Source: Alphaproteobacteria bacterium
GTDB taxonomy: Bacteria; Pseudomonadota; Alphaproteobacteria; M2410
DNA: 58,345 nucleotides
Direction of reading: 5' to 3'
Assembly (NCBI GenBank): GCA_030614785.1
Contig: JAUWTJ010000016.1
Coordinates: 1 to 58,345, forward strand
Position 1 is the first letter of the stretch. Every line of letters begins with the position of its first letter. Below the pieces are notes generated by a model. It was not told where the DNA came from and did no database searches. It was given only the letters and a program-made list of their open reading frames with translations. The translations under genes and the position numbers were made by a program. This document shows positions 11,618-36,320 of this stretch, one piece after another.

Positions 11618-12811
11618 TCAGCTTTCAAGTGCCTTGACGCCTGGCAGGTCCTTGCCCTCAAGCCATTCAAGGAAGGCGCCGCCTGCGGCCGAGATATAGG
11701 TGAAGTCTTTTTCAACACCGGCAGCGATCAGGGCTGCCATGGTGTCACCGCCGCCGGCAACGGAAATAACCCGGTCTGCCTTTGTCAGCAAGGCGACATG
11801 GCGGGCCGCAACATTGGTGCCGTTGTTAAAGGGTGGAATTTCAAAAGCGCCAAGGGGACCGTTCCAGACAACCGTGCTGGCGGTTTCAAGCCGCTGCGCG
11901 ATGTCGCCCAGGGTTGCGGTGCCCACGTCGAGGATCATGTCATCGTCCGACACCTCGCTGGCGGAGATGGTTCGGGCCGCTGCGCCTGCCTTGAATTCAG
12001 AAGCGACTACTACGTCGGTCGGCAGCAGAATTTCACATCCTGCTTCACTGGCGCGGGCCAGAATATCGCGTGCTGTGTCAGCCAGATTGTGTTCGCACAG
12101 TGATTTGCCGACGGGTTTGCCCAGTGCTGCGAGGAAAGTATTGGCCATGCCGCCGCCGATCACAAGCACATCAACTTTGGTAACGAGGTTGCCGAGCAGC
12201 TCCAGCTTGGTTGAAACTTTCGCACCGCCGACAAAGGCAACAACCGGGCGCTTCGGTTCGGTTAGAGCAGCGGCGAGGGCCTTGAGTTCGGCCTCCATGG
12301 CACGGCCTGCTGCGGTCGGCAGAATATGGGCGAGGCCTTCAGACGAGGCGTGAGCCCGGTGGGCGGCGGAGAAGGCATCGTTGACGTAGATGTCGCCATT
12401 GGCGGCGAGCTCCTTGGCAAACTCTGGATCATTCTTTTCTTCGCCCACATGATAGCGGGTGTTTTCAAGGACAAGAATGTCACCGTCCATCATCGCGTCC
12501 ACGGCGATTTTGGCCGGAGCGCCAATGCAGTCCGAGGCAAAACGCACGCGCCGGTCCAGAATGTCAGAACAAGCCGAGGCGATAGGCTCAAGGCTAAACT
12601 CGGGAATCCAGTTGCCCCTGGGGCGACCAAAATGGGCGAGGAGGATGACCTTCGCGCCCTTTTTTGACAGCTCGTGGATTGTCGGGGCGACCCGCTCAAT
12701 GCGTGTGGCATCAGTAATTTTTCCCTCAGACATCGGAACATTGAGGTCGACCCGAACGAGAACGCGCTTTCCGGTAACATCGAAGTCGTCGAGAGTTTTG
12801 AAGTTGGACAT
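11618..12811 (-). CDS. pgk: Phosphoglycerate kinase
   Basis: 397 residues, full family length. Catalyses 1,3-bisphosphoglycerate + ADP to 3-phosphoglycerate + ATP. Motifs are [46 protein letters not shown] and the nucleotide-site [11 protein letters not shown]. It follows gap, with the 119-base folded element at 12832-12950 lying in the spacer, and overlaps the tkt-gap-pgk Calvin/glycolysis grouping common in alphaproteobacteria. Confidence 0.97.
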
Positions 12812-12831: not shown

Positions 12832-12950
12832 CGTCACCCCGAATGCATTGCAGCACGAAGTGATGCAATGCTGGTCCGGGGCCTGTATCTTCCAATTGGG
12901 TCCCGGACCAGCGGAGCAACATTACATGTTGCGCCGCATCCGGGATGACA
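12832..12950 (-). repeat. 119-base cloverleaf-like palindromic element, copy A (between gap and pgk)
   Basis: Read on the transcribed strand it has an outer 15-bp stem (three G-T wobbles) that encloses three hairpins: GCAACAT/ATGTTGC, the 11-bp GCTGGTCCGGG/CCCGGACCAGC, and a CATTGCA-containing arm with a TTC loop. It begins nine bases after the gap stop and ends twenty bases before the pgk start. Copy B at 34596-34714 is also 119 bases, lies in the same orientation relative to its operon, and differs by paired changes in the stems and by indels only in loops. Confidence 0.85.
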
Positions 12951-12959
12951 CTGAATTAC

Positions 12960-13967
<1,008 letters not shown>

Positions 13968-17130: not shown

Positions 17131-17306
17131 GGCAGTGGCGGGCTCTGCCCTGTTTGTCAGGAAGCCCTTTCCCTGAGGCCTTAATCTTCTTCTCGGGAGC
17201 TGTACCTTGTTTGGACCGTGGTCCTTACGACACGGCGCCCACCTGCTGAGTGCAGGCCCACGAGGAACTCTCGCTTCCAACGGTTACGGTGGACCCGCCA
17301 CTCCTC
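17131..17306 (+). ncRNA. ssrS: 6S RNA
   Basis: A gene-free stretch between zapA and the cyclo-ligase gene, the classic 6S RNA locus. The ends pair perfectly (AGTGGCGGG at 17134-17142 with CCCGCCACT at 17294-17302), giving a rod of roughly 170 bases. Inside are CCCTGAGGCC and a late GGTTACGGTGG segment that resemble conserved 6S parts. TAGTAT at 17123-17128 could be its -10. 6S RNA mimics an open promoter and sequesters sigma-70 RNA polymerase. Exact ends are estimates. Confidence 0.75.
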
Positions 17307-33226: not shown

Positions 33227-33360
33227 GGGCGGTCCAAAGTTTTTTCTGAAGAGAATCTGTGAGGAGATTCAAGGCATTGAGCCCACAGAGCAAGGGAAAG
33301 TTACTTCGCAGGTGCAACATTGGTGTTGACGGCATCAGTCCCCGCGCCTATATCGGCGGT

Positions 33361-33408
33361 GGGCCACGCTCCCCCAACGGAGTGCAACTATTCTGTGAGG
33401 AATAGCCA
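33361..33408 (+). ncRNA. serC-motif-like RNA, two hairpins before serC
   Basis: Hairpin 1 is CGCTCC/GGAGTG (33367-33384) with a six-base loop; hairpin 2 is CTATTC/GAATAG (33388-33405), and its loop and 3' side carry GAGGA, the ribosome-binding site of serC. The location, two-hairpin layout and RBS overlap match the alphaproteobacterial serC RNA motif described ahead of serC-serA operons. Its ligand is not known to me. Confidence 0.65.
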
Positions 33409-33409
33409 T

Positions 33410-34579
33410 ATGACTGGTATTGCAAAGCCTGAGGCACGCCCTCAGCGACCTTACTTCTCTTCAGGACCCTGTGCCAAGCGGCCAGGATGGGATCTGAAAA
33501 ATCTGGCAGACGCAGCGCTCGGGCGCTCGCACCGCGCCAAAATTGGTAAATCCAAACTCAAAGAAGCTATCGATCTGACACGCGAGATTCTCGGTGTGCC
33601 GGAAGGCTACCGGATTGGCATTGTGCCAGCCTCGGACACCGGTGCTGTCGAAATGGCGCTCTGGTCGCTGCTCGGCGAACGCGGTGTCGATCTGCTGGCC
33701 TGGGAAAGTTTCGGCTCCGGCTGGATTACCGACGTGGTGAAGCAGCTCAAGCTTGAAGACGTCCGCAAGATTGAAGCGGACTATGGCAAAATTCCTGATC
33801 TTTCCTCGGTTGATACGGACCGCGACGTGGTTTTCACCTGGAATGGTACGACGTCCGGTGTTCGGGTTCCCAACGCTGACTGGATTGCGAGTGACCGCAA
33901 GGGTCTGACGATTTGTGATGCGACCTCGGCGGCCTTTGCTCAGGAACTCGACTTTGAAAAGCTCGATGTGGTGACGTTCTCGTGGCAGAAAGTTATGGGC
34001 GGAGAAGCGGCGCATGGTATGCTGATCCTCTCTCCGCGCGCAGTGGAGCGGCTTGAGAGCTATACGCCGCCGTGGCCGTTGCCAAAGATCTTCCGCATGA
34101 CCAAGGGCGGCAAGCTCATCGAAGGTATATTTGTTGGCGAAACCATCAATACGCCGTCCATGCTTGCGGTTGAAGACTATCTGGATACGCTGAAATGGGC
34201 AAAAAGCCTTGGTGGCGGTAAGGCGATGCGGGATCGGGCGGATGCCAACGCCGCAGTTCTCACCCGGTGGGTGGAAGGGGCGGACTGGATTGATTTCCTG
34301 GCCGCAGATCCGGCATTGCGCTCCAACACCTCTGTTTGCCTGAAGATTTCCGATAAAGCGGTGGCCGCTTTGCCGGATGACGAACAGGCAAAGTTCGCCA
34401 AGTCGATTGCCGCACTTCTGGAAGAAGAGGATGTGGCTCTCGACATTGGCGCCTATCGCGATGCGCCTTCGGGGTTTCGGATCTGGACAGGCTCGACGAT
34501 TGAGACTTCTGACGTCGAAGCCTTGACGCCATGGCTGGACTGGGCCTTCGAAACCGTCCGCCAGCGGAATGAAGTGTAG
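33410..34579 (+). CDS. serC: Phosphoserine transaminase
   Basis: 389 residues, class V aminotransferase of the TIGR01365 type (rhizobial/Methanosarcina form). N-terminal motif [18 protein letters not shown]-lysine in [26 protein letters not shown] and [13 protein letters not shown]. Converts 3-phosphohydroxypyruvate to phosphoserine. The ATG at 33410 follows the RNA hairpin that holds its ribosome-binding site. It is cotranscribed with serA across the folded element at 34596-34714. Confidence 0.93.
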
Positions 34580-34595
34580 CAGCAGAACAAGATAA

Positions 34596-34714
34596 CGTCA
34601 TCCCGGATGCGGTGCAGCATGACAATGCTGCTCCGCTGGTCCGGGACCCAAATGCCCCAATAGGCCCCGGACCAGCAAAGCGGCACTTCGCGCCGCATTG
34701 CATCCGGGGTGACG
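34596..34714 (+). repeat. 119-base cloverleaf-like palindromic element, copy B (between serC and serA)
   Basis: Outer 15-bp stem CGTCATCCCGGATGC/GCATCCGGGGTGACG (one G-T pair) enclosing three hairpins, including GCAGCAT/ATGCTGC and the 11-bp GCTGGTCCGGG/CCCGGACCAGC. It starts 16 bases after the serC stop and ends 19 bases before serA, so it fills the spacer. The serA ribosome-binding site AAAGGAAAAG lies just outside it. Confidence 0.85.
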
Positions 34715-34733: not shown

Positions 34734-36320
34734 ATGCCCAAAGTTCTTATTTCAGACAAGTTGAGTCCACGCGCCGCCGAGATCTTCAAGGCGCGCGGTG
34801 TTGATGTTGATGTCAAGGTTGGCCTCACGCCGGAAGAGCTGATCGAGATAATCGGTAAATACGACGGTCTTGCGGTTCGCTCCGCGACGAAGGCAACGGC
34901 CGAGATTATCGAGGCGGCGGCCAATCTCAAGGTGATTGGCCGTGCCGGTATTGGCGTTGATAATATCAATATCCCGGCGGCGACCAAAAAGGGGATCGTT
35001 GTCATGAACACGCCGTTCGGCAATTCGATTACGACGGCCGAACATGCCATTGCCATGATGTTCGCAGTGGCCCGCCAAATCCCCAAGGCGAATGAAACGA
35101 CGCATGCAGGAAAATGGTTGAAGTCCGACTATATGGGCGTCGAACTCACCGGAAAGATCCTCGGCCTGATTGGCTGCGGCAACATTGGTTCGATCGTTGC
35201 CGCACGCGCGATCGGGCTTAAAATGCGCGTGTTGGCGTTTGACCCCTTCCTGACACCGGAACGGGCGCAGGATATTGGTGTGACCAAGGTCGATCTGCCC
35301 GAGCTCTTTGCCAAGGCAGATTTCATTACCCTGCACACGCCTCTGACGGACCAGACGCGCAGTATCATCGATGCAGATGCTCTGGGCCAAATGAAAGACG
35401 GTGTGCGCATTATCAATTGCGCGCGTGGTGGTCTGATTGTTGAATCCGCTCTGAAGCTTGCGCTTGAAAGCGGCAAGGTCGCCGGTGCGGCGCTTGACGT
35501 CTTTGAAGAGGAACCGGCCCGGGAAAATGCCCTCTTTGGTATGGCCAATGTGGTCGCAACGCCGCATCTTGGAGCCTCGACCTCCGAGGCGCAGGAAAAT
35601 GTTGCCCTGCAGGTCGCCGAACAAATGGCGGACTATCTGGTCGACGGCGCGGTCTCCAATGCGCTCAATGTTCCGTCGGTGACTGCAGAAGAGGCGCCGA
35701 TTCTCAAGCCCTACATCCAGCTTGGTGAGCTGCTTGGGAGCTTTGCCGGGCAATTGACCGAATCGGGCATTGATGAAATTCGGATTGAATATGAAGGTCA
35801 TGTGGCTGAATTGAATACAAAGCCGCTCACGGCTGCGATTATCGTCGGCGTTCTCAGGCCGCTTCTCGCCGAGATCAATATGGTCAGCGGGCCCCAGGTG
35901 GCCAAGGATCGCGGGATTACCATCAGCGAGACCACACGGGATCAACAGGGTGTTTTTGAAAGCTATATTCGCCTAACTCTTGTGACCGAGCGGCAAGAGC
36001 GCTCTGTCGCAGGGACGATTTTCTCTGATGGCAAGCCGCGGCTCATTCAGGTCAAGGGAATCAATATGGACGCCGAATTCGGTCCGCACATGTTGTATGT
36101 GACCAATGAGGACAAACCCGGCTTTATTGGTAATCTCGGCTCTGTGCTGGGTGCCGCCGGGGTCAATATCGCGAGCTTTAATCTTGGCCGGAAGGCAGAG
36201 GGCGAGGATGCGATTGCGCTGCTGGAAGTCGATGGCCCGGTGGCTGACACTGTGTTGAAAGAGGTTGCCAACCTGCCTCTGGTGACACAGGCAAAAGCCT
36301 TGTCATTCGACGCGGTTTAG
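34734..36320 (+). CDS. serA: D-3-phosphoglycerate dehydrogenase
   Basis: 528 residues, the long form with an ASB domain and a C-terminal ACT domain (LYVTNEDKPGFIGNLGSVLG) that binds serine as feedback inhibitor. The NAD-binding site is GLIGCGNIGS; catalytic residues lie in NCARGGLI (Arg), the GAALDVFEEEP Glu and PHLGASTSEAQ (His). Oxidises 3-phosphoglycerate as the first step of serine synthesis. Second gene of serC-serA. Confidence 0.96.
   Translation: MPKVLISDKLSPRAAEIFKARGVDVDVKVGLTPEELIEIIGKYDGLAVRSATKATAEIIEAAANLKVIGRAGIGVDNINIPAATKKGIVVMNTPFGNSITTAEHAIAMMFAVARQIPKANETTHAGKWLKSDYMGVELTGKILGLIGCGNIGSIVAARAIGLKMRVLAFDPFLTPERAQDIGVTKVDLPELFAKADFITLHTPLTDQTRSIIDADALGQMKDGVRIINCARGGLIVESALKLALESGKVAGAALDVFEEEPARENALFGMANVVATPHLGASTSEAQENVALQVAEQMADYLVDGAVSNALNVPSVTAEEAPILKPYIQLGELLGSFAGQLTESGIDEIRIEYEGHVAELNTKPLTAAIIVGVLRPLLAEINMVSGPQVAKDRGITISETTRDQQGVFESYIRLTLVTERQERSVAGTIFSDGKPRLIQVKGINMDAEFGPHMLYVTNEDKPGFIGNLGSVLGAAGVNIASFNLGRKAEGEDAIALLEVDGPVADTVLKEVANLPLVTQAKALSFDAV

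Follow-up and report, generated by a model that had tools for sequence, protein, structure and literature searches.

The DNA analyzed here, a window of 58,345 nucleotides from an alphaproteobacterial contig (JAUWTJ010000016.1), carries a similar 119-base element in two gaps between genes, one between gap and pgk and the other between serC and serA, which raises the question of what this element is and how it came to both places. The first-pass annotation described it as a cloverleaf with a 15-bp outer stem and three internal hairpins, and offered as explanations a mobile palindromic repeat or an mRNA processing or stability element, with a link to 3-phosphoglycerate through the genes downstream. 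Its account of the positions is accurate. Copy A (12832-12950) and copy B (34596-34714) are 83% identical, with B on the opposite strand; read on the minus strand, the end of gap is followed by 9 bases, copy A, another 20 bases and the start of pgk, and on the plus strand copy B begins after 16 bases from the end of serC and is followed by 19 bases before the start of serA. The compensatory stem changes between the two copies are likewise real, and both copies fold far more stably than shuffled versions of themselves (z = −8.1 for A and −9.6 for B, with 0 of 200 shuffles as good). In an Rfam search of the window the element matched no family, the sole matches being a 6S RNA (RF00013, 51.1 bits) at 17139-17299 (+) and a serC leader RNA (RF00517, 49.6 bits) at 33357-33410 (+), ahead of serC and upstream of copy B. 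The features are collected in Table 1.

Table 1. The two copies of the element, their constituent units and the adjoining genes, in window coordinates.
Feature	Position	Strand	Description
Copy A	12833..12949	-	Two long-loop CGTC-type REP units, paired head to head, between gap and pgk; conserved ends GTC...GAC
Copy A, REP unit 1	12900..12949	-	Tag TGTC; stem ATCCCGGA / TCCGGGAC; structured loop of 31 nt
Copy A, REP unit 2, inverted	12833..12882	+	One stem change, GAATGC for GGATGC
Copy B	34597..34713	+	Two long-loop CGTC-type REP units, paired head to head, between serC and serA; conserved ends GTC...GAC
Copy B, REP unit 1	34597..34647	+	Tag CGTC; stem ATCCCGGA; loop 1 base above the usual length
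Copy B, REP unit 2, inverted	34664..34713	-	Tag CGTC; stem ACCCCGGA / TCCGGGGC
pgk, phosphoglycerate kinase	11618..12811	-	After copy A; identified by translated sequence
gap, glyceraldehyde-3-phosphate dehydrogenase	12960..13967	-	Before copy A; identified by translated sequence
serC, phosphoserine aminotransferase	33410..34579	+	Before copy B; start as called by script
serA, phosphoglycerate dehydrogenase	34734..36320	+	After copy B

The conserved structure of the element is a pair of separate 50-nt hairpins arranged head to head. The three-hairpin cloverleaf corresponds to the minimum-energy RNA fold of copy A, but copy B folds as one long imperfect hairpin; the palindrome is imperfect and has these two folds as alternatives. 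The proposed 15-bp outer stem is not the pairing that the family conserves, which lies inside each half. Every half-unit consists of a GTC tag, an 8-bp stem, a 1x3 internal loop, a 4-bp stem, a 1x1 mismatch, a 7-bp stem and a 3-nt loop, and the stems come in two main flavors, CGGA/TCCG and CGTG/CACG. In 61 heterodimers, inner stem pairs are kept within halves in 101/122 cases and across halves in 2/61. Across 65 units, 94.7% of the stem cells are paired, and 166 are changed on both sides versus 56.5 in shuffles. An excess of compensatory change is thus also present when more copies are compared (covariation score 0.379, compared with 0.180 for shuffles and no more than 0.137 for slid controls), and it is located inside each half-unit. 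Wobbles on the tag strand are more often G-T than A-C (38 vs. 19, p = 0.016, a figure that is suggestive, the copies being related), a lean that is not explained by a single transcript, as the tag strand of one half is opposite to that of the other. Because the compensatory changes lie within half-units of opposite tag strand, they are easier to reconcile with each unit being recognized as a DNA hairpin than with selection acting on a single transcript.

The element is a dispersed repeat of its source genome. A sequence search of the assembly (3.86 Mb in 148 contigs, 99% complete) yielded eight near-full copies plus many partial matches, and a covariance model built from the eight placed the repeat at approximately 27 distinct sites. 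No two full copies are identical. In length the copies group at about 51, 116-120, 128, 136, 151-156 and 204-225 bases, the ends being fixed and the differences arising from extra hairpins within loops or stems. In one group of source-genome loci (L046-L051, L037-L040), the copies contain a hairpin of about 37 nt (CTCTAC...GGGCGTGC...GCACGCC...GAGAG), in either arm, and a AACGCATTTTCAGTGAAAATGCGTT module of about 90 nt. Among named genomes, an exact pattern scan matched 74 DNA stretches, mostly from Parvularculaceae and Hyphomonadaceae, with Marinicaulis, Ponticaulis and Amphiplicatus as carrier genera. The covariance model gave strong matches in 7/385 sampled genomes of the class, and the repeat family is therefore patchy; it is absent from the three other genomes searched from the source organism's family, and a plasmid search with copy B returned no match. 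Two further hits, in a viral contig (L131) and a Fibrobacteria locus (L113), look like chance pattern matches in which the second unit is missing.

These properties point to a known class of repeats. CGTC-tagged REPs, described by Di Nocera, De Gregorio and Rocco in 2013, carry a CGTC or TGTC tag (CCTC occurs too), a stem of 8-9 bp beginning with AT, a loop that, three species excepted, measures 4-5 nt, and a tail that is mostly CCA (PMC3733652). They form mostly head-to-head dimers, often heterodimers, and are found mainly in alphaproteobacteria, in intergenic positions near gene 3' ends and between unidirectional or convergent genes; Neisseria dRS3 and Rickettsia RPE-4 and RPE-6 belong among them, and, as they have no linked dedicated transposase, their mode of movement was left open (PMC3733652). 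The window element resembles them in its tag, its AT-initial 8-bp stem, its head-to-head (hetero)dimers and its intergenic location at gene 3' ends. The tag is TGTC or CGTC in 44/46 units of the source genome and in 171/181 units elsewhere, in a search that demanded GTC and left the first base free. The 8-bp stems ATCCCGGA/TCCGGGAT and ATCCCGTG/CACGGGAT, together with covarying versions of them, conform to the CGTC-REP stem, with the outermost A-U pair missing in 14/65 units, and the 92 parsed dimers have their tags outside. The tail varies, being CCA or CTA in 21/46 source-genome units and mostly other triplets elsewhere; next to the 8-bp stem of long-loop units it is often not CCA. It is the loop that differs, at 31 structured nucleotides in 151/227 units (in a search spanning loops of at least 12 nt) and more where hairpins are nested within it. 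Since loop length departs from the published definition, the window element is a long-loop variant of the CGTC-tagged REPs. Long, self-complementary loops are also known from the GTAG-14 repeats of Bradyrhizobium (PMC3733652). A second hairpin module of approximately 46 nt (GCGCGC...GACCGCC TTCGCGGTCGG) occupies the REP apical loop in several species (L107, L067, L091, L104), and a comparable module is present in a short-loop REP that lies upstream of a nuclease gene (L172).

The gap-pgk site is empty in two genomes (G002, G003), in which the genes are adjacent at a distance of approximately 20 bases, and likewise in more distant genomes; between serC and serA, eight relatives have a short gap that lacks the element, two of them (G041, G047) being carriers of the repeat. 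Marinicaulis relatives share the element at other orthologous sites, with differing internal hairpins (134 bases in L063, L090 and L097 versus 180 in L107). In the orthologous Ponticaulis elements (L074 4267-4393 and L083 6733-6859), the two stem flavors are assigned to the halves the other way round in one than in the other, as would result from an inversion of the element or a swap of its halves at the site. Both comparisons indicate that loops are gained or swapped on an element whose ends remain stable. The dispersal over approximately 27 sites, the empty sites of relatives and the match to head-to-head CGTC REP dimers together bear out the mobile palindromic repeat. The 3-phosphoglycerate link had to be dropped: it concerns two of about 27 copies, which sit at many different sites, and it looks like coincidence.

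Two other origins have to be weighed at this point. That the element is an RNA structure kept between cistrons for mRNA processing or stability, its spread being secondary, would account for the stable folds and covariation and for the placement of copies, which often lie 8-40 bp from stop codons and are depleted at divergent promoters. By gene calls from a simple coding-potential script, 29 elements lie between convergent genes, 51 between codirectional genes, 8 between divergent genes and 6 inside a called gene, convergent placement far exceeding divergent (29 vs. 8, p = 0.0008), in a sample that is not fully random as the named loci were picked by an exact pattern for one half. We nevertheless consider this origin very unlikely, as orientation to transcription, the refuting test set beforehand, proved random: in codirectional gaps of the source genome and named loci, 22 elements are sense and 29 antisense (p = 0.40), and the source-genome copies alone show no bias either (5 sense, 8 antisense). 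The wobbles lean to each unit's own tag strand, these strands being opposite, and the sites are empty in relatives. Copies may still have a secondary effect on mRNA, since they avoid divergent promoters. The other possibility, mobilization of the repeat as a REPIN by a RAYT (a Y1 tyrosine transposase), as for GTAG-tagged REPs, draws on an identical architecture of inverted REPs, namely a hairpin pair with an unpaired tag (PMC3116915, PMC2817692), and on the presence of three Y1 genes in the source genome. It is even less credible, and indeed highly improbable: the tag is GTC, no Y1 gene in the source or carrier genomes has the element in its flanks, a Y1 match is absent in 10/14 carrier genomes, including the isolate Amphiplicatus metriothermophilus, and the same missing linkage is reported for CGTC REPs at large (PMC3733652). 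The element also resembles MITEs, which likewise are short, gene-less, bounded by terminal inverted repeats, stably folded and dispersed between genes, but among the copies examined there is neither an insertion sequence sharing their ends nor a duplicated target site. In the source genome, a search for an autonomous (DDE) insertion sequence with the element's ends found none, and nowhere do two ends lie 0.5-5 kb apart in a way that would allow them to enclose a transposase gene, although gaps in the assembly might conceal one; target-site duplication is likewise not consistent at the borders of full copies.

A gene of a different kind is linked to these repeats. In one locus (L087), a GIY-YIG gene of approximately 95 codons lies between two copies of the element, and genes of the same type lie between or beside copies in L103, L115, L093, L105, L066 and L080. 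These loci had been selected for holding the element, and tests without that selection were added. When all PF01541 genes in 15 genomes were listed, none of the 14 UvrC genes had a REP within 100 bp (one has a REP at 115 bp), nor did any of 12 other standalone GIY-YIG genes in carriers have one close by; most genes of the subfamily ending in WKxxLIExxNPxWxDL have close REPs, of several types. With a profile of 22 subfamily proteins, the nuclease was found in 47/144 alphaproteobacterial genomes, and 85 genes were analyzed with their flanks. A hairpin detector placed a CGTC-type REP within 200 bp of 56 of these 85 genes, and on both sides of 37, versus 16/330 distant windows of the same loci (5%) and 1/54 pgk windows (odds ratio 23.7, p = 9e-37); at the other 29 genes the script detected no REP, though some of these show REPs by eye. 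Matching inverted repeats flank 48/85 genes, compared with 0/26 pgk genes, 0/57 shifted windows and 10/400 mismatched flank pairs. When any 3-nt tag was allowed, TGG (complementary to the CCA tail) and GTC came out as the two most frequent of the 64 possibilities, and CCA is by far the commonest tail of the REPs beside nuclease genes (101 cases). The median distance of the REP is 33 bp upstream of the gene and 15.5 bp downstream, and the gene sits mostly in the spacer of a head-to-head REP dimer. Some CGTC-type pairs thus surround a small nuclease gene much as in a REPtron, the enzyme linked to GTAG REPs being a Y1 HUH transposase and that linked to the CGTC type a GIY-YIG nuclease. In Amphiplicatus metriothermophilus (L093 1-3100), long-loop REP dimers cluster densely around a nuclease gene, with many units in a few kb.

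The linked protein belongs to the GIY-YIG superfamily by its PF01541 score (52-56 bits), its profile match to 1zg2 (E = 1.6e-11) and the residues Y6, Y17, G19, R27, E64 and N83, which are invariant or nearly so in 22 proteins. It shares its domain, with the conserved catalytic Tyr, Tyr, Arg, Glu and Asn, with standalone GIY-YIG or UPF0213 proteins (PDB 1zg2, 1ywl) and with homing GIY-YIG enzymes, and differs from them in comprising the catalytic domain and the short WKxxLIExxNPxWxDL tail, with no separate DNA-binding domain, and in being flanked by REPs on two sides. A search of a phage collection with the nuclease gave no match. The REP-flanking gene is a strong candidate for the missing enzyme that moves the CGTC REP class.

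Gene and REPs appear to travel together. Two genomes of one genus (L226, L238) have in common 371 bp that start and end with REPs, between unrelated neighbors, and two other pairs of loci (L190/L199 and L171/L173) have the nuclease gene and at least one REP in common, but not their surroundings. Minimal REP/GIY-YIG gene/REP units of approximately 370-500 bp occur in L226, L238, L216, L225, L275 and L230, the smallest units measuring about 370 bp. One genome (G139) has ten nuclease paralogues beside several different REP types. Long-loop REPs adjoin 6/7 members of one nuclease clade (support 100/97); conversely, of the nine nucleases next to long-loop REPs, six belong to this clade and three lie elsewhere in the tree, on which the long-loop trait requires 5 changes versus 8.8 when shuffled (0/500 as few). 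Similarity of the REPs is correlated with similarity of the proteins (rho 0.20, 1/999 permutations as high). The source genome has two genes of the subfamily (contigs C37 and C45), each bordered by REPs of other types, and in this 99% complete assembly none of the clade associated with long-loop REPs; the matching clade is also missing from several long-loop carriers, many of them draft genomes. Because the matching nuclease is missing there, the long-loop copies of the source genome are probably relics, or else depend on a gene missing from the assembly.

Among named records, the pattern recurs in Sinorhizobium meliloti, Rhizobium, Shinella, Neorhizobium, Novosphingobium, Sphingobium and Azospirillum lipoferum and also outside the class, in Aeromonas caviae and, with dRS3-like repeats, in Neisseria gonorrhoeae; no clear REP pair was seen at the nuclease gene in Photobacterium or Rhizobium tumorigenes. 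The REP beside the Shinella gene is multicopy, with 598 places in 222 plasmid records. On Azospirillum lipoferum plasmid AZO_p3 (255506-255799, L304), a REP-flanked GIY-YIG gene splits sufB from sufC, genes that are normally adjacent in one operon. On Planktothrix agardhii plasmid p1 (L312), a subfamily gene lies among GTCATTCTGAG repeats, between a MmeI-type restriction enzyme and the DISARM gene drmA.

Homing endonucleases are found among the GIY-YIG enzymes, and the nuclease might then be a free-standing homing-type gene for which REPs, spread by other means, serve as landing sites. Consistent with this, the REPs of some units are one-sided, and some genes lie between complete REP dimers and not in the spacer of one. 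We regard this as unlikely, given that, in 26/37 two-sided cases, the gene is carried as cargo inside a single dimer whose tags face outward, that the L226/L238 pair carries the gene and both REPs together at sites without other homology, and that REPs and proteins diverge in a correlated manner. The account that joins REP dimers, mobilization by the linked nuclease and the window copies as non-autonomous relics is probably correct. Under this account, the nuclease would recognize its cognate REP hairpin, as a single strand or as a cruciform, and nick it near the GTC tag, a reaction that is plausible because GIY-YIG enzymes also include structure-selective nucleases such as SLX1. Such nicking would spread both the REP-gene-REP unit and gene-less dimers, with the window copies as non-autonomous derivatives comparable to MITEs. 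Copies would survive close behind genes because insertion is tolerated there, and any effect on gap-pgk or serC-serA mRNA would be incidental. What the comparisons establish is positional linkage, orientation, joint occurrence of gene and REPs at unrelated sites, a partly parallel divergence and the catalytic residues; cleavage and mobilization by the nuclease are inferred, and the loci compared revealed neither a new insertion event nor a target-site signature. Whether the REP-gene-REP units, with two CGTC hairpins and one nuclease gene, are a new type of autonomous mobile element, the source of proteobacterial CGTC REPs with gene-less dimers as MITE-like offspring, is a proposition on which we are evenly divided.

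For the window, the idea of a metabolite-linked RNA element is replaced by that of a mobile-repeat relic. The link between nuclease and REPs is of wider interest than the element itself and, as far as the literature searched shows (subscription papers and preprints being outside its scope, and priority unproven), it has not been reported. CGTC REPs are widespread small repeats of alphaproteobacteria (PMC3733652). A nuclease family is now tied to them by position, orientation and parallel divergence, which makes the question of their movement directly testable in the laboratory. The link also offers a possible function for many small proteins that at present bear no annotation beyond "GIY-YIG nuclease family protein" or "excinuclease ABC subunit C", and would suggest that DNA can be moved with a GIY-YIG enzyme alone.
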